From contig NC_068567.1 in assembly GCF_025698545.1 (NCBI RefSeq), positions 60,772,705-60,836,704 of the forward strand: DNA of 64,000 nt, written 5' to 3'. Of the stretch, positions 1 through 23,900 are shown one piece after another; position 1 is the stretch's first letter, and each line of letters starts with the position of its first letter. Position numbers and translations under genes: made by a program. Under the pieces are notes generated by a model. The model was not told the DNA's origin, ran no database searches, and saw nothing but the letters and a program-made list of their open reading frames with translations. This DNA comes from Gossypium raimondii (taxonomy: Eukaryota; Streptophyta; Magnoliopsida; Malvales; Malvaceae).

Positions 1-1900
1 CCAAACTTAACACGCATGACCTATATGAATGGAGTATGAAATATGATGATTAGATTGTTTAAATATTAGTTTTATATTGATGTAAAAGGATCTCGCTCTA
101 TTTTTCTACTATAAAGTAAATTTTAAATTGATCTAATTTAGATAAATATTTTAAAACTATATTTTCTTTAATTACTAATTCTTAAATCGAGAAGTTGATC
201 ATTTTACTTAATTTTTGAGGTTTTATTAAAATAAAAAGTCAGTCCAATGGTTGATAAAATATATGAAATTGAACTATTGATAATTCATTGAACTGTTAAT
301 TTTTTATTAATTTCACGCATATAAATTACTAAATCGCAAATTTCTTAAGTAGCAAATTACGGTAAAGGTTTAGCAAGGTTAATAAATTAGATTAATTTAT
401 TAATTGCCAATGATGTTTCGATTTGTTGTAATATTAAGGTCTTAGAACTTTGATGGTCGAAGTTCGAGTCTCGCTATGTACTAATATTATGTGTGAATTT
501 TATACAAATTTATTTATTTTATTTTAGATTTGAATACATCCCGATTTTCAATAAATTATGTTTTTTATTAAATTTATTCTACTTCTAATGGATAAAATTT
601 ATATAGTTGTACTTGTAGATTCCTTGAAAAAATATAGTGTTTATTTTTATTTTATAAAATAAAAGAATAAATTTCATAATTAAACTCAATAAAGTGAAAT
701 ATTGAAAAAAAAATAGTGATATAATAAATTAAAATATCTTACCCAACATTATCATTATTTTCCCAGCTTTCACCATGACGCGCGTGGCTGCCGCCCACTT
801 TAAAGCAAACTAAAATTTAATGCAATAAAATATGGGTACCTTATTCAAGGCCCTGAGTCTAACCAGATTTATTTTTAAGTTTATAATATTTTATGTTATG
901 TTTATTTAAAACACATTAAAATATATATATATTAAATATAATACGACTCTTATGTAAATATTTAAATAATATTAAGATGACTATATAAAAAAATTTAATA
1001 AAATAAAATTAAAAATTAAAAAAATATAGACGAGCCTAAAATAGACTTGGATTAATCTTTTATAAATATAAATAATTTTAAACAAAATTTTAAGTCCATA
1101 TTTTGAGCCAACTTGAACAAACATGAGGTATGTTAATCTCATGCTTAGACTCAATCCGAACACAGCCATGAGCACCTCTACTCCCGTACAAACCCTTTTC
1201 CATATTTTTTATTTTTATAATTTCTTAATTTTTCTTAATTAACATCAAGTCTAGGTTGGGGAGAGAAAAATACGTCACGCCTTGCCCTGTTTTTATTTTA
1301 ACTCTAAACACAACCAAATTTTATTTTTGATATAAAATTCCATATTCAATAATCATATTGAACTCCGATTAAATCCGAAATTTAAATTTGTACCCTTGAA
1401 CCAAAACAAAGCTCTCTTGACCCTATTTACCTTGTACACAAAACTCGAACCCAAAACCCAACCTCTAACAGCGCGTGACACCACCTTTCTTTTATCTCCT
1501 CCTCCCTAAAAAATAAAATCCAAGAATCCCACTGCATGAAAACGACTCCATTTTTAATGGCACTTTCTACTTTAATTGAACCCCCCAATAGATCCTCCGT
1601 TGATCTTTTGATGATGATGATGATCATACTAACATTTTTCTACCCCACCTTTAGAATAAATTTCCTCCCTTTATCACCGCTCAGCTCTTTATTACTCTCT
1701 TTCACCATTTTTCATGGCTTTTTTTCCTCAAACATTTCTGAAGATTTTAACTTTGTTTGGTTGTTTGTCGGTGGAGAGTAGCATCCAATGTTATTAAAAA
1801 TAAAAATAAAAACCTGCCCTTTCAATTAAAACCCAACAAAAATCCAACTATTATCATCCTTCTGGTTTCTGGGTTTATGTGGTTTGTAATTTAAGCCACA
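1..1900. other. AT-rich intergenic sequence upstream of the FPP gene
   Basis: I see no convincing gene. Short reading frames here lack family resemblance. A repeat end of the hAT-like type (CAGCCATGAGCACCTCTA at about 1157-1175) matches the right end of the 50.3-50.9 kb element, so roughly 980-1175 is probably a degenerate, 5'-truncated copy. The stretch at about 1780-2017 is pyrimidine-rich and probably holds the FPP promoter and leader start. Confidence 0.5.
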
Positions 1901-2017
1901 ATCATTTCAGCTTCCATCACTTCAAATGCCAGTTTCTTCTTAACAATTCTCTCTGTAATGTTGGTTCAAAGCTTTAGCTGTTGTTGAAAAAACTTGATTC
2001 TCTGCATAAAAACAAAG

Positions 2018-2501
2018 GTGAGAGAGAGCCATTGAACTGTTCTTCTACCTATTGTTCGTGATTACCATGATAGTGATGTTGATTTTGACTGTATCTTGAA
2101 AATAAACCATTGTCACTTTCATATATAAGTGAGACTGTGTGTGTGCATGGAAAAAGCTAGCATCACCATTGTTTAATTACTTAACTTTCCTTCTTTAGAT
2201 GCATTAGTTAGCAAGTTGATTTGTTCAAAAATGGTAACTATGTATGGCATGTAGTATTTGGAAGGTATACTTTAATGTTTTAATCCCTAAATACATGCAT
2301 TTGTTAGAGATGCTTACAATGCCCTTTTAATGCTGTTTATAGTGATTGATTTTGCTTTTACATCTACTCGTGTTTGTGAAAAGTACTGTGTGAAGTGTAT
2401 ACATGGGAAATGCTTAGTGTTTGTTTTGGCCATTGTTTTATAGATTGGTTAAGATGCCAACTTATTTGATGGCCCTATAATTAAGCTGTTCTTTTGTTCA
2501 G
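2018..2501 (+). other. Probable 5' leader intron of the FPP gene
   Basis: A donor-like site (AAAG/GTGAGAG) at 2017/2018 and an acceptor (TTTTGTTCAG/AAACTG) at 2501/2502 sit upstream of the start codon at 2519. A leader intron just before the ATG is common in this family. This is inferred from splice consensus only, without transcript support. Confidence 0.5.
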
Positions 2502-2518
2502 AAACTGAAACTAGAATC

Positions 2519-5500
2519 ATGGACCACAAATCATGGCTTTGGAAGAAAAAAACTTCGGAAAAGACTATTGTTGCTACGGATAAGGTCGATGTTTCTGTGA
2601 AACGAATTAATGAAGAGGTAAACCAAAAAGCTTTAACTATCTTGTTTCTTGATTCTTGTTTTGAGATTTTTATTTTTATGATCTATGAAAATGACCCGAG
2701 GATTGACGTTTTTGCTTGCTAGGAACGAATGGAGGGGGGACGAGATAGAATAGTAAAGAATCTAAATGAGAACCTTGCTTCGGTTCTCCTTGATAATCAT
2801 GCTAAGGACGATTTGATGACAAAAAATGTGAAAATGGCACCGGTACTGAATGCAGGTATCATTTGAAGATCAGCTTATTTTGTTTGAAACGTGCACTTTC
2901 CTTTGGCTTTGTAGAATCTAATAAGTAGAAGTTTTTGTTTAGGTCAGGACATGGCTGAAGCAGATGCATTCGCTCTGAAGAAAGAGCTACATGAAGCTTT
3001 GAGGCAAGGGAAATTGGCAAATGAAAAGTTGACTCAGTCGGAGGTTGCGTTGAAGGAATGTATGCAACAGCTAAATTTTGTTCGAGACGAGCAGGAGCAA
3101 AGGATCCGTGATGCTGTTGCAAAGACATCAACTGAGTTCGAGAAAGAACAGAAAGCATTACAAGACAAGTTGACAGACACAAACAGAAGGCTTGAAGAGT
3201 TGACTATCGAGAATTCTCGGCTAGCTAAAGCCTTGCTAGTCAAAGAAAAAATGATCGAAGATCAGGAGAAGCAGAAATCTCAATCAGAAGCAGAATTCAG
3301 TGCACTAATGGCTAAATTAGATCTCACTGAGAAAGAGAATGCATTTCTCAAATACGAGTTTCATGTTCTCGAGAAGGAGCTTGAGATCAGAAACGAAGAG
3401 ATGGAATATACCCGTCGATCAGAAGATTTAGCACATAAACAACATTTGCAGGATGTAAAGAACATTGCTAAGTTGGAAGCCGAATGCCAAAAGTTACGTT
3501 TACTTCTACAAAAGAGGCTGCCAGGTCTGGCTGCCGTGGTGAAAATGAAGAATGAAGTCGAAATGCTGGGAAAGGACAAGTCAGAGACAAGAAGAAGAAA
3601 GCTGAACCCAACTAGAGATTTGATCGTCAGAGGCTCCACTGCTGACATATCTCCTGAAAATCCAATCAAGAGTATCAATCTCTTGTTGGAGCAATTACAC
3701 AATGTGGAAGAAGAAAACAAGAATCTCAAAGAAATAATGACCAAGAAGAATGCTCAAATCCAATCATTGGGTTTAATATGTTCTCAAACATCATCCAGGC
3801 CAACAACAGAAATTGGGATTCAGCCTAAAGAGTTGTTTAAAGGACAAAAGTCCATGGAGCTGGTAAGGAGTAGTACGATATCAAGTGAACTATCCATAAC
3901 ATCAGGTTTTGATATTGGCAGCTTTGATGGAACTAGCTCTTCTTGTTCATGGGCTAATGCATTGTTTCCAGAATCTGCACGCTTGGACAAAAGACTTAAG
4001 AATCCAATGGATCACAAGGTCTTTACAGTTCCAGAAATGAGATTAATGGACGATTTTGTAGAGATGGAAAAATTAGCCTTATCGGATGGTAAGGAATTGG
4101 TGCCATTTGAGCAAGGTCATGGTACCTTCAGCAATACAAAGCAGATGCAGTCAAAAGATGTAGCAGGTGAAAGATCATTTGATTGGCTTCAGGTTGTTTT
4201 GCAAGCTATCTCCAAGCACAAATGTATTTCCAACCGAAGTTCAATTGAAATTCTTGAGGACATCAAAATTGCTTTGGGTTGTAGCAGTCTTTTAAATGCT
4301 CCTGATGTTGATAAAACTGCATGTTCAATGCATCCCATAGAAGCTGATGGTCCCCATATCAGCGGCTACATAGCCTGGAAATCCCCGAACGCTTCTCCTA
4401 GTACAGGTTCACTAAGCGGAGCTTCTAGTGTTGAGACCTCAGCCGAAAAAACAAAAAAGCCACTGTTTCAGCCTGATCTGAACAAGTCAATCGGTAAAAT
4501 CATTGAACTGATTGAAGGAATTGGACTAACATCTTCCGATTCTTCTGACAGTTGTCTAGAGAAAAATCAAACCCCCAAACAATCACCAGCTCATGCAGAC
4601 TACTTTGTTCGTGTTTTTCAATGGAAAAGTTCAGAATTAAGCACCGTTCTACAACATTTTATTCGTGCATGTAACAATATGTTGAATAAAAGGGCTGATC
4701 TTGAAACTTTTGCTGAAGAACTCTCATTTACTTTGGACTGGATTGTGAACTATTGCGTTACTCCTAAGGAAGCTTCGAGTGCGAGGGATAAGATCAAAAG
4801 ACATTTTGGTTGGAATGATTCACAAAGTGAAAAAGAAGTTGCTTATGCAAGCCATGGTGTGGAATCAGATGTGACCCACATTTCTAAAGAACAAACATCA
4901 CTTGTAGACTCCTTTGCTTCTTTGCCTGATCAGAGTCACAGTGTTATCCCCCCACTGGAGGAAGAAAACAAGAGATTAAAAGATGATCTGAAGGATATGA
5001 AAACGAGGCTGGAGTCAGAAACAGACAAGAGTGAGGCCCTGATGTTACAACTTCAAGAATTAAAGGAAAGCATCGGAAGCTTACAAGCAGAACTTAATAT
5101 GTTGAAAGAATCAAAGGAAATGATAGAGGAACAGGTTGAAAATCAGAAATCAATTAATGAAGATCTCGATACACAGCTCACTGTTGCCAAAGCTAAACTA
5201 AACGAGATCTTCCACAAGTTATCATCTTTGGAAGTTGAGTTGGAGTACAAAAATAGCTGTTGTGAAGAGCTAGAAGCTACTTGTCTTGAGCTTCAACTCC
5301 AGTTAGAGAAGCAGATGCATTCGCTCTGAAGAAAGAGCTACATGAAGCTTTGAGGCAAGGGAAATTGGCAAATGAAAAGTTGACTCAGTCGGAGGTTGCG
5401 TTGAAGGAATGTATGCAACAGCTAAATTTTGTTCGAGACGAGCAGGAGCAAAGGATCCGTGATGCTGTTGCAAAGACATCAACTGAGTTCGAGAAAGAAC

Positions 5501-8460
5501 AGAAAGCATTACAAGACAAGTTGACAGACACAAACAGAAGGCTTGAAGAGTTGACTATCGAGAATTCTCGGCTAGCTAAAGCCTTGCTAGTCAAAGAAAA
5601 AATGATCGAAGATCAGGAGAAGCAGAAATCTCAATCAGAAGCAGAATTCAGTGCACTAATGGCTAAATTAGATCTCACTGAGAAAGAGAATGCATTTCTC
5701 AAATACGAGTTTCATGTTCTCGAGAAGGAGCTTGAGATCAGAAACGAAGAGATGGAATATACCCGTCGATCAGAAGATTTAGCACATAAACAACATTTGC
5801 AGGATGTAAAGAACATTGCTAAGTTGGAAGCGAATGCCAAAAGTTACGTTTACTTCTACAAAGAGGCTGCCAGGTCTGGCTGCCGTGGTGAAAATGAAGA
5901 ATGAAGTCGAAATGCTGGGAAAGGACAAGTCAGAGACAAGAAGAAGAAAGCTGAACCCAACTAGAGATTTGATCGTCAGAGGCTCCACTGCTGACATATC
6001 TCCTGAAAATCCAATCAAGAGTATCAATCTCTTGTTGGAGCAATTACACAATGTGGAAGAAGAAAACAAGAATCTCAAAGAAATAATGACCAAGAAGAAT
6101 GCTCAAATCCAATCATTGGGTTTAATATGTTCTCAAACATCATCCAGGCCAACAACAGAAATTGGGATTCAGCCTAAAGAGTTGTTTAAAGGACAAAAGT
6201 CCATGGAGCTGGTAAGGAGTAGTACGATATCAAGTGAACTATCCATAACATCAGGTTTTGATATTGGCAGCTTTGATGGAACTAGCTCTTCTTGTTCATG
6301 GGCTAATGCATTGTTTCCAGAATCTGCACGCTTGGACAAAAGACTTAAGAATCCAATGGATCACAAGGTCTTTACAGTTCCAGAAATGAGATTAATGGAC
6401 GATTTTGTAGAGATGGAAAAATTAGCCTTATCGGATGGTAAGGAATTGGTGCCATTTGAGCAAGGTCATGGTACCTTCAGCAATACAAAGCAGATGCAGT
6501 CAAAAGATGTAGCAGGTGAAAGATCATTTGATTGGCTTCAGGTTGTTTTGCAAGCTATCTCCAAGCACAAATGTATTTCCAACCGAAGTTCAATTGAAAT
6601 TCTTGAGGACATCAAAATTGCTTTGGGTTGTAGCAGTCTTTTAAATGCTCCTGATGTTGATAAAACTGCATGTTCAATGCATCCCATAGAAGCTGATGGT
6701 CCCCATATCAGCGGCTACATAGCCTGGAAATCCCCGAACGCTTCTCCTAGTACAGGTTCACTAAGCGGAGCTTCTAGTGTTGAGACCTCAGCCGAAAAAA
6801 CAAAAAAGCCACTGTTTCAGCCTGATCTGAACAAGTCAATCGGTAAAATCATTGAACTGATTGAAGGAATTGGACTAACATCTTCCGATTCTTCTGACAG
6901 TTGTCTAGAGAAAAATCAAACCCCAAACAATCACCAGCTCATGCAGACTACTTTGTTCGTGTTTTCAATGGAAAAGTTCAGAATTAAGCACCGTTCTACA
7001 ACATTTTATTCGTGCATGTAACAATATGTTGAATAAAAGGGCTGATCTTGAAACTTTTGCTGAAGAACTCTCATTTACTTTGGACTGGATTGTGAACTAT
7101 TGCGTTACTCCTAAGGAAGCTTGAGTGCGAGGATAAGATCAAAAGACATTTTGGTTGGAATGATTCACAAAGTGAAAAGAAGTTGCTTATGCAAGCCATG
7201 GTGTGGAATCAGATGTGACCCACATTTCTAAAGAACAAACATCACTTGTAGACTCCTTTGCTTCTTTGCCTGATCAGAGTCACAGTGTTATCCCCCCACT
7301 GGAGGAAGAAAACAAGAGATTAAAAGATGATCTGAAGGATATGAAAACGAGGCTGGAGTCAGAAACAGACAAGAGTGAGGCCCTGATGTTACAACTTCAA
7401 GAATTAAAGGAAAGCATCGGAAGCTTACAAGCAGAACTTAATATGTTGAAAGAATCAAAGGAAATGATAGAGGAACAGGTTGAAAATCAGAAATCAATTA
7501 ATGAAGATCTCGATACACAGCTCACTGTTGCCAAAGCTAAACTAAACGAGATCTTCCACAAGTTATCATCTTTGGAAGTTGAGTTGGAGTACAAAAATAG
7601 CTGTTGTGAAGAGCTAGAAGCTACTTGTCTTGAGCTTCAACTCCAGTTAGAGAGGTAAAGTGTTGCTTCCTAGTTTTAATTCCTGTGATTTCTAAAGGAA
7701 CTTGTCAATATAGTTTCTGATTTATGAAACATAAACTCACAGTGTGGCAAAGAAAGAAACACCGAAGTATGTCATGGATCAAGAGGGGAAGCAATCTCAA
7801 AATGTAAGTCGTTAACTATTTATCCTATCATTCGCCTGCCTTGCTAAAACTTTATCTGGTCTTTGGTATTTTTCTGATATGTAACTTTTACAGTTGATAT
7901 AGGTAATAGGCCATACCAATATTATATGGTGCATTGGCAGTAATATGAATGGCAAATGGCAAACTTTCTATATTAAACACTGATATTATATGTCTGCATT
8001 TTCGAACATACAGGGTTGGGAAATTACAGCAGCTTCAGTCAAGTTAGCAGAGTGTCAAGAAACAATTCTGAACCTAGGTAAGCAATTAAAAGTGTTGGCC
8101 TCACCGCAAGAAGCAGTACTATTCGACAAAGTTTTCTCCAATAGTAAAGCCGCTACCACGGCTATAAACAACAGAAGGGTGAACAAACGTCTCTCCTTGC
8201 GCGATCGAATGCTAGCCGACAATGGTAGTAAAGTAGAAGATGCAGAAAATTCAACCCTTCTCCACTCCGATAATCGCAAGACTTCAGGTTTGTTGTTACA
8301 TGCCTCGGGATCATGTCTTGGTTCCAAGAATGAAAGTGCCAATGCCGGAGTTATGGCTTTGGCTATCGTACCAAGCAAGAAGCAAGGAGTAGGTTTGCTA
8401 AGGAAGTTGCTGTTTCGAAGGAAGAAAGGTTACACTAAGAAATTTCGTTACCAACACTGA
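2519..8460 (+). CDS. Filament-like plant protein (FPP, DUF869 coiled-coil), main exon duplicated
   Basis: Long coiled-coil protein of the plant FPP family, thought to act as a filament- or membrane-associated scaffold. Exons I infer: 2519-2617 (starts MDHKSWLWKKK, the family's typical N-terminus), 2723-2855, a large exon from 2943, then 7743-7803 and 8014-8460. The C-terminal part carries the conserved KLAECQETILNLGKQLK block and ends in a basic tail. In the sequence as given, the large exon is followed by a second tandem copy (junction at 5309/5310) that is out of frame, so translation from 2519 would stop at 5329 after about 872 residues. Counting the large exon once (2943-5310) and joining it to the last two exons gives 3108 nt, an uninterrupted 1035-residue reading frame, which is within the size range of the longer FPPs. 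The gene is therefore either truly interrupted or, more likely, misassembled. Splice phases (0, 1, 2, 0) are all consistent. Family assignment is confident; the exact FPP number is not. Confidence 0.85.
2957..7654 (+). repeat. Direct tandem duplication of the FPP main exon (2 x about 2.35 kb)
   Basis: Unit 1 is about 2957-5309 and unit 2 about 5308-7654. The offset is 2351 bp at the start and 2344 bp at the end because unit 2 has lost seven single bases, at about 5831, 5861, 6921, 6965, 7123, 7131 and 7179. Most losses are in short homopolymers, and I found no substitution by eye. Junction microhomology is about 2 bp (GA). The duplication begins 14 bp inside the exon and ends at its donor, so it includes neither splice site of the left copy's 3' end nor the right copy's 5' end. 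Confidence 0.9.
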
Positions 8461-9094: not shown

Positions 9095-9194
9095 GTTTAC
9101 AAAACAAAAGAAACAGAGGAGGGTAAAAAAAATTTCATGTGGTATATTGTAATGTTCATAAATTTTCACTTGTACACCTATCAACTTTTTTTGC

Positions 9195-11862
9195 CTATGC
9201 TTTGTCCGCCTCCTTTGCTGCCACTTTCATTTCAAGTAATGCATCTTCAAAGCATTTAGCTAGAAACTCTGGGTCAGGGATGATATCTTTAGCTACAAGA
9301 ATTTGCATTTCGGCTTTACCGGCATAACTCACCATGTGCATCGTTAGAGCCTGCTTTTAAACGTAATTTATCATACTTCTAAGAAAAATGAAGAGTCCAA
9401 GCAACAGTTGGTGTTGTACCTGTGGTAGGCTAGAAGTAGAGACCTTGATGCTAGAGATAGGGTTGCCTGAAAGTGTAATGTCCTCTAAAGGGCCAATCAA
9501 GTTTGAGATAGTGAAGGTTGTATTACAAAGGAGCTTGTAATTAATCAAAGAAGCATACTGCAACACCAAAACACATAATTAGTAGGCAAAAACGGGTAAA
9601 AGTAATATGGAGGTCCTTGTATATTAGTCTCTATTTAAAAATTGGAGAAATTAGTTTCTGTATATTAGTTTAAAGAGTAAATTGGTCCTTTCTATTAAAT
9701 ATTTCATTCATTTGTACTATTACAAACTAGCAGGACTAATGGAATAACTAGACATTGATATTGACTTGCCACGTGTATCTTAGTTTGTAACCGTAGAAAT
9801 GAATGAAGTTTTTAATAGAAGGTTCAGCTTGCTCCTTAATCTAATGTATAAGGACTAATTTACTCCTTTTTTTTAGTGAAAAGAGAAAATACAATCCGAT
9901 TCTTAGTATAATAACCTCCATGATACTTTTACGGAAAAAAAACATCTCCAGATCAACTATCTTATAGATGTTTCAATATCGTTTTTGTTCTGTTTTTTTT
10001 TTTTTACTACACCTTTGTTCCTAACAGGGTCATTGTAAGATCCCCAATCCTGTAAGAAAAGTAAGCTTCCAGGGACTGTTTCTTCCTATCGACCATCACC
10101 TTTGCTCTCTTCAAATATTCCAAAGGATCATTACCACTTTTATGATAAAAGACAGGTAACAAAATTACCCCAAATCTGTTTCCCCATCTTGTTTCTGAAT
10201 TATCCTTCATTAATTTAGATATTTCCTGACAAAGAGAAAAACCAGACATGACAAAGAGAAAAACCAGACATGATGGGCAAAATCTGAAACCGTCGTCTGT
10301 CAAACACAGTGTGTGAAACCTAAAACTAACCTGCAACCCTGGTTTTGCTCTTAAATTAACCATAGCTACACCTGTCATACGAAGGCCTTCATGCAAGGCT
10401 ATAACAAGAACAATCAATGAACTCCAAATCAGTTTCTAGATTGGCACCAAGTGTTTGGTTATAGTTTTATGAACAAATTTATTTACCATTTGGTGTGCTG
10501 TGATCCAAGTATCTTGATAGTCCACATGACACTATCCCAAACAGGACATCATTAATCGTCTGCAAAAACAACGAAAGAGTTAACACTTTTCACTATTATG
10601 GGTTAATTAAGCTCAAAAACAAAAACCCATTATGCTAAATCTCATTAAAAATTGTTCTTTTAGTCCCATAATTTAGGGTCAAGTCAACCTCATGTTAGGG
10701 CCTTTGAACCAGAATTATATGGGACAGTTACATTTATTGGTAAATTCTGCTATTATTCGTTTCTGTATTTTATGAAATTATCAATGCTAAACCTTATATT
10801 TTTTTAATTTTGAAATTAGTACTTATATAAACTGATAAATCTATTTGGTTAAATTCAATTACTATATGTACACTTGACGAATCATTTTAATTCCTTATAT
10901 ATTTTGATTTTTGAACTTTAAATCTTTTCATAAATGATAGTTATTAATCTATTAATTGAATATTTAGTGAGTAATATGAGAAAATAACAAATAGAAGAAC
11001 TCAATTTTAAAAATTTAAAAAGTATAAGGACTGATAGAAATTAAAATTCAGTAGTAATTGAGAATTTAACCTTTTCAGGTTACCTACTGTATCGGATACG
11101 GCAAGAGTTACTTACTGCATCGGGAATGGCCTTTTTGACCTCTTTCATGTCATGAAGCAAGAACTTAGCGGTGGCTAGTTTCCTTGGCCAGAGTTCCACG
11201 CCATCGCCACCAGAAACCGCCGTTTTCCGGTCAGAAACAAAGAGACTCCTCAGTAAAAACTCCAACACGAATACCAAAGTGAGCCAAGCCATCTTTAAAA
11301 ACCCCCACATGGAACCCAACAACCATGGCGAATCCCGTCTTTTCTCGGTCGTCTTCTCGGGAACCATCATGGGAAGCGCGTCTGGATCACTCACCTTCCT
11401 ACAACTAGCCATTAACATGGACATTAAAGAGATCCCATCACCTAAAGAATGGTGGATCCTAAACACAACGTGCTTATGCGCCGTTAAAAGATGAACTTCC
11501 CATAAAGGCTTGTCCGTACTCAATGGACTACTCACTGATAAATCAGCTACATACCGATTCACTGCTACTTCATCATCTTCTTCATCTTCATTAACCCGGT
11601 TTTTAACAACGATAACATGTCGGTCAACGTCGAGCCGGGTTTTTCTCCAGTGTTCGAATCCATTCTCGTCACGAACCAGTAAGCTACAAAATCTAGGGTG
11701 CTGCCCCATCGGCGAAGACATAATAGTCGCTTTTGCACCGTCTACGTCGATGGGGTTTTTGGTACGAGCAATACAGTGGATAACCACGTCCGTTTTCCGT
11801 TGAAGAAAAAGCCGACCGGCTGGACTCAACGGTTCGTCGGAAAAAGTTCCCGGACAAGCCAT
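9195..11862 (-). CDS. WSD-type wax ester synthase / diacylglycerol O-acyltransferase (copy 1)
   Basis: Bifunctional acyltransferase family that esterifies fatty alcohols or diacylglycerol with acyl-CoA, normally at the ER, in cuticular wax synthesis. Six exons in transcript order: 11862-11116, 10559-10487, 10398-10331, 10225-10013, 9557-9420, 9350-9195. They total 1395 nt and 464 residues with consistent phases and GT/AG borders. The condensing motif HHSLGDG is at about residues 137-143, and a hydrophobic segment lies at about 184-208 (WGFLKMAWLTLVFVLEFLL). The second exon has the family's TINDV block, the fifth CNTTFTISN. The start MACPGTFSDEPLSP aligns with its paralogue at 22166. Introns 1 and 4 carry MITE-like insertions. 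It looks intact. A second, near-identical donor sequence lies 28 bp into intron 1. The exact substrate cannot be read from sequence. Confidence 0.88.
9596..9932. repeat. MITE-like element with TIRs in WSD copy 1 intron 4
   Basis: The left end GTAAAAGTAATATGGAGGT pairs with the right end CCTCCATGATACTTTTAC as about 18-bp terminal inverted repeats with few mismatches. It is about 337 bp long and non-coding. Internally, ATTAAATATTTCATTCATTTGTA pairs with AATGAATGAAGTTTTTAAT. Related copies: 8812-9094, 33722-33915 and 40777-40955. Confidence 0.65.
10229..10272. repeat. 22-bp perfect tandem duplication next to WSD copy 1 exon 4 acceptor
   Basis: The unit starting ACAAAGAGAAAAACCAGACA occurs twice back to back (10229-10250 and 10251-10272). 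It lies within the intron just upstream (in transcript sense) of the exon 4 acceptor, so it lengthens the pyrimidine-rich tract. Confidence 0.9.
10740..11077. repeat. TIR repeat of the TTTAGTCCTTATA type in WSD copy 1 intron 1
   Basis: AT-rich, non-coding. The left end (AAATTCTGCTATTATTCGTT) is roughly the inverse of the right end (CTGATAGAAATT...GTAGTAATTGAGAATTT). Internal blocks such as AATTTAAAAAGTATAAGGACT match repeats at 36460-36770 and 58475-58815. It is probably an old non-autonomous DNA transposon. Confidence 0.45.
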
Positions 11863-12666
11863 GAAGGTTAAAAAAAGAAAAGGGTAGCCGCCTAATCGGA
11901 TTCTTCAAAACTGTACCGTATTTTGGTGAGAAAAAGTGCCGAGTTTCCTCTGATTTGTTACTTTCACTGTAACACCATTTTCAAGGTTTGTTGCACAAGT
12001 TTTGAGACGAACACTTTCATGTATTATCGTCGTGTGTAATTACTGACAATTTTTCCACTTTCAGAAACTGTCAATGAAAGCAACATTTTCAGACTAGTAC
12101 AGATACAAGGAGGAGAATACAGTTGAATATCTTTAATATAATGCTTTTGCCATGCGGAAGCGTTACGAACGCGGGTTCTCCGTCCATCCGTTTTAATCCC
12201 TTTTTTTTTTTTTTTATCTCACTATATCTACAACTATAAAGAACTTACATTATATTCAAATCGACCTAACAATTAATATTGAAAATCAGAGAAAAAAATT
12301 ATTTAAATTTTGATTCGTAGATTCGTGACATTTAAAGTTGTTTCATGAAAAAAAATTAAATTGTAGAAGAAAAAAGGAAAGAGAACTTTCGATTGATACA
12401 GAAAGTGCAAACAAAAAAAAGTCATTTATAACATCGATTTTAACAATCCATTGAGTGAAATGAAAACTTTTGAATAGCCCGATGACCAAATTGTAATTTT
12501 TTTAGTTAAGTGACTAAAACGAAAAATCATTTATAGTTTAGTGACAACTGATATAGTTTACCTAATAAAAAAAAGGTGTAATTTAAACTAAAATTTATAA
12601 ATATATATAATTTGGTTTAATAATCGATTCAATCGGTTAGTTTATTTTGAATCAAGTGGTTTTTCT

Positions 12667-15285: not shown

Positions 15286-15340
15286 AAAAAAATACAGATT
15301 TAGGTTTAAAAATATATAATAAATAAAAAATTGAAACTAA

Positions 15341-15675
15341 TAATAATATATACGTAATGAGCGTCAGACGATATCAAATGATATTATAATAACATATAAT
15401 AAGTAATGAAATGTATTGTTTGAAATTGAACCCGTGTACTTGTCAGATGGTTAGAGTGTTCATTGCCCCATGTGTGACATGGGTTTGAGTCGCGTTGCTG
15501 TTAATAATATATAATAATATATACGTAATGAGCGTCAGACGATATCAAATGATATTATAATAACATATAATAAGTAATGAAATGTATTGTTTGAAATTGA
15601 ACCCGTGTATTTGTCAGATGGTTAGAGTGTTCATTGCCCCATGTGTGACATGGGTTTGAGTCGCGTTGCTGTTAA
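15341..15675. repeat. 171-bp tandem duplication with a tRNA-like B-box motif
   Basis: Units 15341-15511 and 15512-15675 differ at one position that I can see (GTGTACTTG against GTGTATTTG). Each contains GATGGTTAGAGTGTTCATTG and GGGTTTGAGTCGCG, which resemble the A and B boxes of a tRNA promoter. There is no cloverleaf that I can close, so it is at most tRNA-derived. Confidence 0.85.
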
Positions 15676-19009: not shown

Positions 19010-19870
19010 CTGTCATGGTTCGTTTTGATGTTGTTCTTAGTGAAATGATATGGTTATGCTTGTTTTGAATTAAGGTTTTATTATATGGATTTAAATTAGC
19101 TGTGACTGAGTTTCTGAATTTTTGGATGTTTGTTTTGGTTGCTTAAATTTATAGATAAATGCTTAAGACTGTTATTGCCTTTTTATATTTAATCGTGTTT
19201 TTTCAAGTTTTATTATCTGGCTGCCATTCAATGATTTTTTGGGGCTCAATGCTAATAGCTTTGAGATGTATTGTAGACCCTATGTTAGCTTATATATACA
19301 ATTTGGTATGTAAATGTTTGTCTTTGCTTCTGAGTCTTGGTAGACAAATAGATTTCTTCATCTTGCTATATACCTATAGTTTTATTTTGATGATTAGTTC
19401 AAATTTAAGGTTTAGATATTCCTTTAGTTTTGTGATATGTCTTCTGCTATGACCATAATATGATAAGAAACTTTAAAGACCTCCCTGAGTATAGAAAAGG
19501 TACTTTGTTGAAGGAGATGGCCTTAAATAGATGTGTATGAATGGGGTTGAGTCATGCGCTATAAACCTGAAGCTTTAGCTTTAGAGCAAGTTGCATTTTA
19601 GGGGCTGAAGTTGATAATTTCATCATCAAATTACTTTTAGAATAATCCTCCTAAAGCCACCAAATAAATTAACATTTGATGAAGTCAATGGGTCCCGATA
19701 CTGATGTAGTAGTCGGAACTCAAAAGTCCTAGGACTTGGAGTCAGACTAAAAAATATGGATGGTCTTAAGAGCTTAAAGAACAATAAAAACAGAAGGTAA
19801 AAGGGATTCCACAGATTCATGTGATAAATCGTAAATGTGATTGTTTTTCTCGTGCTGTTTGATTTGAGGT
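19010..19870. other. RPS16 3' flank and spacer to WSD copy 2
   Basis: T-rich and AT-rich sequence containing the RPS16 3' UTR. I find no additional gene; the reading frames here have no recognisable domains. Confidence 0.5.
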
Positions 19871-19874
19871 TTTT

Positions 19875-22166
19875 CTATGCTTTATTGGTTGCAATTGCTG
19901 CCGTTTTCATTTCAAGTAAGGCATCTTGAAAGCACTTAGCTAGAAACTCTGGGTCAGGGATGATATCTTTAGCTACTAGAAGTTGCATTTCAACTCTACC
20001 AGCATAACTCAACATGTGCATTGAGATTGCCTGTATTAAACAACATTAAAACTTGTGAGTGTCGTGCATATAAAGTGTCATGTGCTTGTGTAGATATACG
20101 TATTGAACATGAGTATTAGATATACCTACCTGTGGTAGGCTAGATGTATTGAACTTAATGTTAGAAACCGGGTGGCCTGCAAGTGTGATATGCTCTAGAG
20201 GGCCAACGAAGTTTGAGATAGTGAAGGTTGTATTGCAAAGGAGTTTGTAATAAAGCAAACAAACATACTGCAAAAACCAAAGATAACAATGCAGTCATTA
20301 GGGTATCTAGTATCTCCAAATCAACTGTTGTATGATATTTTCATTATCTGCTTGTTTCTTTTGCTGAACCTTTGGTCCTAGCAGGGTCATTACAAGATCC
20401 CTGATTTTGTATGTGAAATAGGCCTCCATGGAGTGTTTCTTCTTATCATTCATCACCTTTGCTCTCTTCAAATACTGTAAAGGGTTATTGCCACCTTTGT
20501 GATGGAAAACTGGTATCAAAATTGCACCAAATTTGTTTCCCCATCTTGCTTTTGAATTCTTTTCCATTACTTCTGATAGTTCCTGACAAAGTGAAAATCA
20601 GTAGTTCACCTTCCGCAACCCATTTTAAGGTCTCAAAGCGCCAATTGCTAACATCAATAGTGTTTTATCTATTATTTGAGCCGGGCTGAACTTGAGTTTG
20701 ATTCAAACATCAAATTTTAAGCTCAAGCTATCGAGTTACTCAAGCTAGATTAAAGTTTGTGTATTGATTTATGCTCGAACTTGAGCTTGATTTAAGTTTT
20801 GTTCATTGGACCTTTTCATAGTTAACTTCTAAAAATGTTTATTGCATAATAAAAAATGTATTAAAATTTCATTCAAGTATTACTGAGTATAAGTTCGATT
20901 AATAGCTTGAGCTTGGTCCTATCGTTGAAATCTGGAAAGCTGAAACTAACCTGCAACCTTGGATTTGCTCTTACATTAACCATGGCCACCCCAGTCAAAC
21001 GAAGGCCCTCATGCAAGGCTAACAACAAAAATTGGAATCAAATCAGTTCTGGTTTTTTTTTTTTTGGGTTGAAAATTAGTTCTAAATTAGTGCCTGGTTT
21101 GATAAATGTTTATGAAGTAAGATTACCGTTTGGTGTTCGGTGTTCTAAGTATCTTGATAGCCCAGATGACACCATTGCAAGCATAACATCATTAATGGTC
21201 TGCAAATTTGCGTTAGGTCAGTAAAAAGTTCGAATTAAAATTTTTAAAAATATATAATCTGTGTAATCAAAACCGGATGACTAGGGAACTCGTGGCGTTA
21301 CCTGTACCGATAGCTATGGAACAGATATTCATATTCTAGTTACTTACTGTATTTGGGATAGCCCTTTTAACCTCCTTCATGTCTTCAAGCAAGAATTTAG
21401 CGGTGGCCAATTTCCTCGGCCAGAGTTCGACGCCGTTGCCGCCTGATATCACTGTTTTCATGTCGCACACAAACAAGCTCCTCACCACAAACTCCAACAC
21501 AAACACCAAAGTGTAACGGACCATCTTAAAAACCCCCCAGAGAAGACTTAACAACCAGAACCAATCCCTTCTTTTCCCGCTCTTAATTCCCTCAGTCTTA
21601 ATGGGAGGAACCGCCGCGGGAACCACCGCGGGAACATCTACCTTCCCGCTTCCGGCCATCAACATGGACATCAACGAAAACCCATCCCCTAAAGCATGAT
21701 GAATCCTGAAAACGACACACTTGTGCGCCTTTAAGAGGTGTAGTTCCCACAAAGGCTTGTCCATACTCAACGGACTGCTCACCGATAGATCCGCTACGTA
21801 CTGATTCACCGCCACTTCACCATCACCATCACCATCACCCTCATCATCGTCAAAACCTTGGGTTTCGTGTTCTCCGACGAACTTACCCGGTTTATTGAGC
21901 CGGTTGTTGATGACGATGAAATGCCGGTCGATGTCGAGCTCGGTTCTTCGCCAATGCTCGAACCCGTTTTCGTCACGAACCAACAGGCTACAAAATCTAG
22001 GGTGTTGGACCAGCACCGATGACTTTAGAGCCGTCTTTGCTACGTCTAAGTCGATGGGGTTTTTGCTAATGGCTATGCAATGGATGACCACGTCAGTTTT
22101 TGGATCAATAAAAAGTCGACCGGCAGGGCTCAACGGTTCGTCGGAAAAAGTTCCCCGAGAAGTCAT
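19875..22166 (-). CDS. WSD-type wax ester synthase / diacylglycerol O-acyltransferase (copy 2)
   Basis: Paralogue of the gene at 9195-11862 with the same six-exon structure: 22166-21348, 21199-21127, 21018-20951, 20582-20370, 20267-20130, 20030-19875. Total 1467 nt, 488 residues. Exons 2 to 6 have exactly the same lengths as in copy 1 (73, 68, 213, 138, 156 nt); only exon 1 differs (819 against 747 nt). It carries the active-site HHALGDG motif, a hydrophobic segment FKMVRYTLVFVLEFVVRSLF, and an acidic insert rich in D, G and E before AVNQYVADLSV that copy 1 has in shorter form. I chose the start MTSRGTFSDEPLSP by alignment to copy 1; the frame stays open upstream to 22379. Intron 3 holds a degenerate repeat (about 20690-20930). 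It appears intact. Confidence 0.88.
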
Positions 22167-22169
22167 TAC

Positions 22170-23900
22170 AGTATAAAAAAAAGGGGTATTTGAATTATTC
22201 AAAATGACACTGACCGGAAACTGTACTTTCTCGCCGTTTGCTTTGTATCGGTTATTTGTACTACAAACAAAGCTCTCTTTCAACATTGATGTTGCATTTT
22301 TAACGTGAACGGAATGATAACCGGCCCCTAATTGATGCATGATGACAAGTTTTTCCTGCCGGGAAACTTGAAAGCTCATTCAACCGTTAATATATTTACG
22401 TTTTAGTCGTTAACTTTAAAATATTACAAAATATATCCACTAAACTATCTAAAATTTTTTGTTTAAGTTAGTTAAAATCGTAAATGTATAGCATTCTTTG
22501 TTCTCACATCTGACACCAATTAAAAGGGTAAGTTTCCCTTCCTCTTCTATAATTTAGTTTTTTTTTTATAAAATAATTTTGAACGTTACGAATTTATGAA
22601 CCAAAATTTAAAGAACTTTCTTCTTTGATCTTCCATATCGATTATTAGATCAGCTTGGCTATGAGATATATTTACTCGCTGATTGGTATTATTTCATAAT
22701 ACTGATTAACAAATTATTGTTCGAAGCTTGTTGGACTTTAAAAAAAGATTTCATGGTCCAATGACTTAAATGAAAATATTCAAATAATTCACTGATTAAT
22801 TTGTAGATTTTTAAAGTAGAATGATTAAAATGTAAATTTATAAATAATTTAATAACCTTAAGTATAATTTATCCATTTATATGGTATTTGTGTAACGATG
22901 GGAATTGATGGTGTTGTTTTGTCATTCATTTGGTGCTTTTGATTGTGGCATACTAACATTTATGAAATTTTGTTTGATTTTAAGTGTTGGGAAATTCTTA
23001 AAACTCGATTGAGTGTTTATATCTTACTACCATAAGATACCACTCATTATAGTGTAAATATGCTTGTTTTATTCTTTTGTTTTTGGTACATGAATGGAAT
23101 AAATTAAATCTGTTCATGAGTTGAGTCGGGTCGGATTTTAATAAAATTTTAGGTTCGTTTTATGGTTTCGATTTGACCTGAAAAATGGGTTAAAATTTTT
23201 GCTCAAGTCTGATTTGAATTGTAGATGCTAAACCTAGACTCGACTCGTATTTAAAATTTATTTTATTTTATTTTTTTATATATAAATAATACATCAAAAC
23301 ACTAAAAATATTAAAATAAATGTTTCCCAACAAATTAAAAATAAGTTAAAAGAAATGTTTATACTTAAATAACACTAAGATAGGTGTAACTTAACAAACA
23401 AATATCTCTAAAATAGTAGCAAAATTAATAATAAAACAAGGATTATACAAAATCCAAACAATAACAATAAAATAGTAGCAACATAATAGTAAGATGACAG
23501 TAAACAGTGAGAAAACGATAGCAAAATAACAAATTTTTTTTCTTTTTTGCAAATTTTAGGCTGGTGGACAAAAAGACCTTACTGAAGACTGAACTTATTT
23601 TTTAAATGGGTATTATTTTTTATCAAAATTTATTTTTTAAATTTATATTTTTATCTAAATTTTCTCACTTTTCAGATTTAGTATAAATACATTAAATAAA
23701 TACATATATATCTTAAAATTTCCATTGAATTGATTATAATTTGGAATGTTCAAAAATACCAAATTAACATATAAAAATATGGCATCCTCCAATCAGCCAA
23801 TACATAGGGTGGTGGTGGGTGGCCAGGTGGGATCACATTGAATATTATCAATACAGTATGCAGAAAAGACACTAACGTCGTGATCAAACTTCGTTGGAGA
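22170..23900. other. Intergenic, AT-rich, with a hAT-like repeat copy
   Basis: There is no supported gene. The region 23103-23560 is a minus-strand relative of the repeat at 50348-50934: both share ACTATTTTAGA and GTTTATTAAGTTGCACTTATC-like blocks read in opposite orientation. The rest is AT-rich spacer. Confidence 0.5.
23103..23560 (-). mobile_element. hAT-like non-autonomous element, degenerate copy
   Basis: The left end GTTCATGAGTTGAGTCGGGTCGG resembles the GTC/TTCATGGGTCGGG termini of this superfamily in the window. Its interior is the reverse complement of 50520-50760 (for example AATAGTAGCAAAATTAATAATAAAAC). The right terminus is not clear. Confidence 0.5.

Follow-up and report, generated by a model that had tools for sequence, protein, structure and literature searches.

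The assembly of Gossypium raimondii shows the largest exon of a gene for a filament-like plant protein (FPP, PF05911) twice in tandem, and the question is whether the plant itself carries the second copy or whether the copy was made during assembly. The window analysed here is the whole stretch of 64,000 nucleotides that contains the gene (C3:60772705-60836704), and positions are those of the window unless another contig or stretch is named. An artefact would mean that the annotated gene is cut short or divided in error, and that an exon duplication is counted where none exists. Deletions confined to one copy and unaccompanied by substitutions, as described below, would then be a cheap flag, obtainable from sequence alone, for assembly errors of this kind. 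A real second copy would be a very young exon duplication that disables the C-terminal portion of the gene.

Structure of the FPP gene and the repeated unit

The FPP gene comprises five coding exons, and all its introns have GT/AG borders (Table 1). Exon 3, the largest, measures 2368 bp when the repeat is counted once. The two copies of the repeated unit form a direct tandem repeat, head to tail. Their alignment, 2353 columns long, pairs a left copy of 2353 bp with a right copy of 2346 bp and contains no mismatch and seven one-base gaps, all of them in the right copy. The original prediction had described just this: two 2.35-kb copies, seven deletions confined to the right copy and no substitution. 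A chance origin of an exact tandem repeat of 2.35 kb is far out of reach. The copies overlap at their junction by the two bases GA, which can be assigned to either side; the boundary predicted at 5309/5310 is consistent with this overlap, as are 5307/5308 and 5308/5309, whereas the repeat ends at 7653 in the alignment and not at 7654 as predicted. The 29-base string spanning the junction (5294-5322) occurs once in the whole genome (281 contigs, 750,779,957 bases). Not a single N is present in the 64-kb window or in the ~30 kb fetched on each of its flanks.

Table 1 Features of the FPP gene and of the repeated unit in the window.
Feature	Position	Strand	Basis
Exon 1, coding part from ATG	2519..2617	+	reading frame, GT/AG borders
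Exon 2	2723..2855	+	reading frame, GT/AG borders
Exon 3 as assembled, both copies	2943..7654	+	acceptor 2942/2943, donor 7654/7655
Left copy of the repeated unit, frame intact	2957..5309	+	alignment; ORF with 665 bits against PF05911
Right copy with seven one-base deletions and a broken frame	5308..7653	+	alignment; ORFs of at least 100 aa; Pfam pieces
Junction, 2-base overlap GA	5308..5309	+	copy ends; 29-base string unique in genome
TGA just past the junction, ends the protein at 872 residues	5327..5329	+	translation
Exon 4	7743..7803	+	reading frame, GT/AG borders
Exon 5 including the stop codon; matches the last part of the FPP profile (835-870 of 871)	8014..8460	+	frame, profile match

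Translation of the spliced exons with the left copy alone in exon 3 yields an exact frame of 1035 residues with one terminal stop, the length predicted for an exon counted once. In the assembled arrangement, with both copies in line, the protein ends at 872 residues, which agrees with its predicted truncation. The right copy alone places the first stop at position 281. Against PF05911, with its curated cut-off of 40 bits, the ORF of the left copy reaches 665 bits and thus belongs to the FPP family. The right copy is broken into forward ORFs (at least 100 aa) of 204, 403 and 160 residues, each of which matches the FPP profile separately. Other genes of the family share the domain content, and in the paralogues too a large exon is followed by a separate C-terminal exon. 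However, among the 34 rows of the genome search with PF05911 the large exon is found twice at this locus only; the paralogues carry it singly. Beyond the 3' end of one paralogous FPP gene (stretch L009, 162-3642) lie predicted ORFs whose translations we take to resemble a copia-type retrotransposon polyprotein.

Differences between the two copies

The seven deletions map to left-copy positions 3480, 3510, 4572, 4614, 4776, 4785 and 4830, a site being given as its leftmost base where a run leaves the place ambiguous. The sequences hit are, in the same order, CC, AAAA, CCCCC, TTTTT, a single C, GGG and AAAAA, with lengths of 2, 4, 5, 5, 1, 3 and 5. Six of the seven deletions hence fall in runs of at least two bases and four in runs of at least four, as expected from the prediction that they are mostly in homopolymers. 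The summed run length was reached in a fraction of 0.00024 of 200,000 random draws of single-base deletions, and four or more of seven deletions in runs of at least four have a probability of 0.0008 under random deletion. Two of the deletions strike a C before a G (CCG and TCG), one of them being the single C outside any run.

Natural divergence in plants, including that of unconstrained DNA, consists chiefly of substitutions. The differences between the copies look like uncorrected base-calling errors rather than divergence, judging by their type and placement, and the right copy is one that was never corrected, as these error-like differences indicate. Allelic copies were considered and rejected, the deletion-only differences being unlike allelic ones. 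The 7:0 one-sidedness of the deletions (two-sided binomial 0.016, calculated by hand) favours a copy that comes from a single poor source.

The direction of change can be read from the paralogue on C13, in which the large exon is present as a single copy within a 637-residue open frame. This paralogue has the length of the left copy at five of the seven deletion sites, which are all those where it can be aligned; it has no aligned sequence at 3510 and 4830. The right copy is therefore the derived one, and the left copy is the intact form of exon 3. A derived right copy could in principle have arisen in the plant, by a real duplication followed by true decay through seven deletions. Such a copy would be free of constraint, with translation already ending at the TGA just past the junction, but unconstrained plant DNA is expected to gain mostly substitutions. 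Were one tenth of mutations one-base deletions, an assumed fraction, seven out of seven would have a probability of ~1e-7 (calculated by hand), and we consider true decay very improbable.

Fit of the breakpoints to exon 3

The repeat is exon-sized, as had been predicted: of the 2368 bp of exon 3, 2351 belong to the unit, which is free of intron sequence. The unit starts 14-16 bp into the exon and stops 1-3 bp short of the exon end. In a crude model that places both breakpoints uniformly over a 4.5-kb stretch round the single-copy gene, a fraction of 0.00037 of simulated draws put both of them no more than 16 bp from the ends of the same exon; the fit itself was noticed post hoc. A random misjoin does not predict exon-fitting ends, and a real duplication with random breakpoints does not do so either. 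In particular, the same fraction counts against an artefact produced by a random join.

Ends that fit the exon would be predicted if a spliced RNA intermediate had been involved, or if transcripts had served in assembly or correction. The second copy might thus stem from a transcript with which the assembly was corrected or filled, or from an exon that was reverse-transcribed, perhaps out of a circular RNA, and rejoined its own gene. The near-complete exon devoid of intron bases, a fit rare under random breakpoints, agrees with such an origin. However, inspection of the breakpoints for splice signals revealed none, the two copies do not meet at a splice junction, and exon bases are absent at both ends of the unit, which led to rejection of a back-spliced circular-RNA junction. 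Reverse transcription also introduces substitutions among its errors, and substitutions should then be seen between the copies. An origin shaped by RNA is accordingly given even less credence than true decay of the right copy. The least probable version we considered is that the tandem copy is real DNA, made via a spliced RNA intermediate such as a reverse-transcribed exon, and that sequencing errors later entered one copy.

False exon gain or recent duplication

The duplication is probably a false exon gain that arose while the genome was being assembled. Exon 3 would be present once in the plant, and a second, uncorrected version of the exon 3 stretch would have been joined directly after the corrected one. 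This version may have come from a poorly corrected read, a contig end or a gap-filling piece; the joined copy would still carry the deletions of the raw base calls, and the join would shift the frame into a stop. The absence of the join from the plant, and the assembly step that made it, are what we infer. The original prediction read the deletions as a sequencing-error signature and the duplication as possibly false. The first part stands, with error-type differences on one side and an intact left copy on the other, whereas the falsity of the duplication itself does not follow, because error-like differences could also be left in one of two truly duplicated exons if the event was very recent, and do not alone decide the matter. 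The lack of an N gap between the copies further weakens the reading as a false duplication.

The closest known counterparts are homotype false duplications and false exon gains, as far as the portions of PMC9516828 drawn on here describe them. According to these portions, false duplications are mostly separated by gaps and only sometimes connected via incorrect gap filling; a false exon gain is called when at least one coding exon is completely overlapped by a false duplication, and a homotype false duplication when read depth is below the haploid level or heterozygous k-mers are lacking (PMC9516828). The FPP locus is alike in having extra exon sequence in one gene, with a wrong gene model as the outcome, and in showing sequencing errors, to which the deletion-only pattern lends indirect support, rather than allelic differences. 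It differs in that no gap is present and the outermost 17 bp of the exon are missed, so that the overlap of 2351 of 2368 bp is short of the complete one in the rule for false exon gain.

The alternative that retains the copy in the plant is that exon 3 was really duplicated in tandem, and very recently, with copies that are truly identical, and that the deletions of the right copy are assembly errors. Polishing would have missed the right copy, short reads preferring the other one, and the gene product would be cut to 872 of its 1035 residues. When an exon is duplicated in tandem by non-homologous joining, the event leaves a direct tandem repeat with a short junction overlap, and 2-base overlaps are common at end-joining junctions. 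The clean join without N, the direct repeat and the 2-base overlap at exon 3 match this description, whereas the deletion-only differences in one copy and the broken frame do not. The absence of substitutions in 2346 bp could be accommodated if the event is less than ~0.2 million years old, an age that we estimated from the cotton substitution rate of 3.5e-9 per site per year. On the other hand, raw errors should then have persisted in both copies or been cleared from both, yet all seven are in one (0.016), and the explanation requires a rare recent event plus a local failure of polishing at one and the same place. By judgement rather than calculation, we regard a real recent duplication as clearly less likely than the artefact, although more likely than true decay or an origin shaped by RNA.

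Search for similar cases in the genome

The genome was searched with profiles of four other gene families with large exons, and the rows were read by eye for same-strand pairs in which the same part of the profile is repeated, with matching scores, within about one exon length. The rows, whose counts are lower bounds for each family, numbered at least 94 for GRAS (97 of 97 candidates scored), at least 86 for UDPGT (86 of 188), at least 111 for DYW (120 of 120) and at least 102 for DUF247 (103 of 107). These rows contained no comparable exon-sized repeat beyond one suspicious GRAS locus on C9. There (C9:48883376-48885037, corresponding to 1877-3538 of stretch L017), two matches (98-214 and 115-216) fall on largely the same part of the profile, and the second contains a stop. 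However, this locus holds no direct repeat above 90% identity of at least 60 bp, and the second partial match may be an old copy that has degraded. On C13, two neighbouring UDPGT matches (77 and 83 bits, both open) separated by 2.2 kb look like plain tandem genes, as do the clusters of DUF247. Such an artefact is therefore not frequent in what was examined, a point that counts against the reading as an assembly error; a rare one may be present elsewhere in the genome, the row counts being lower bounds.

Ten stretches totalling 87,003 bases (L009-L018), which were chosen rather than drawn at random and include two FPP paralogues, the window flanks and two GRAS loci, have no direct repeat pair of at least 60 bp above 90% identity except one of 64 bp in L011. 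Outside plants, a 19-base string near the exon end had no match among viral contigs, and a collection of bacterial and archaeal contigs gave 10 pattern stretches and no confirmed relative; neither collection is meant for plants.

Sequence quality around the locus

Other long ORFs in the window, whose domains are complete or almost so, run unbroken from stop to stop, namely those of a PPR-DYW protein (858 aa), a U-box/ARM protein (447 aa) and a ribosomal S9/S16 protein (149 aa). The DYW domain is covered from 1 to 93 of 93 positions and the ribosomal S9/S16 domain from 1 to 121 of 121. Since these ORFs are unbroken, the errors look local, and the surroundings of the FPP locus look well corrected as far as these three genes show. 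In the tandem repeat of 171 bp at 15340-15675, the 165 paired bases show a single substitution and are free of indels, a pattern that looks like ordinary divergence. On the minus strand, 9190-11904 and 19870-22379 hold two similar tandem genes with repeated blocks that are 78-83% alike and reach 91% over 127 bp; the gene at 19870-22379 matches the wax ester synthase/DGAT domain.
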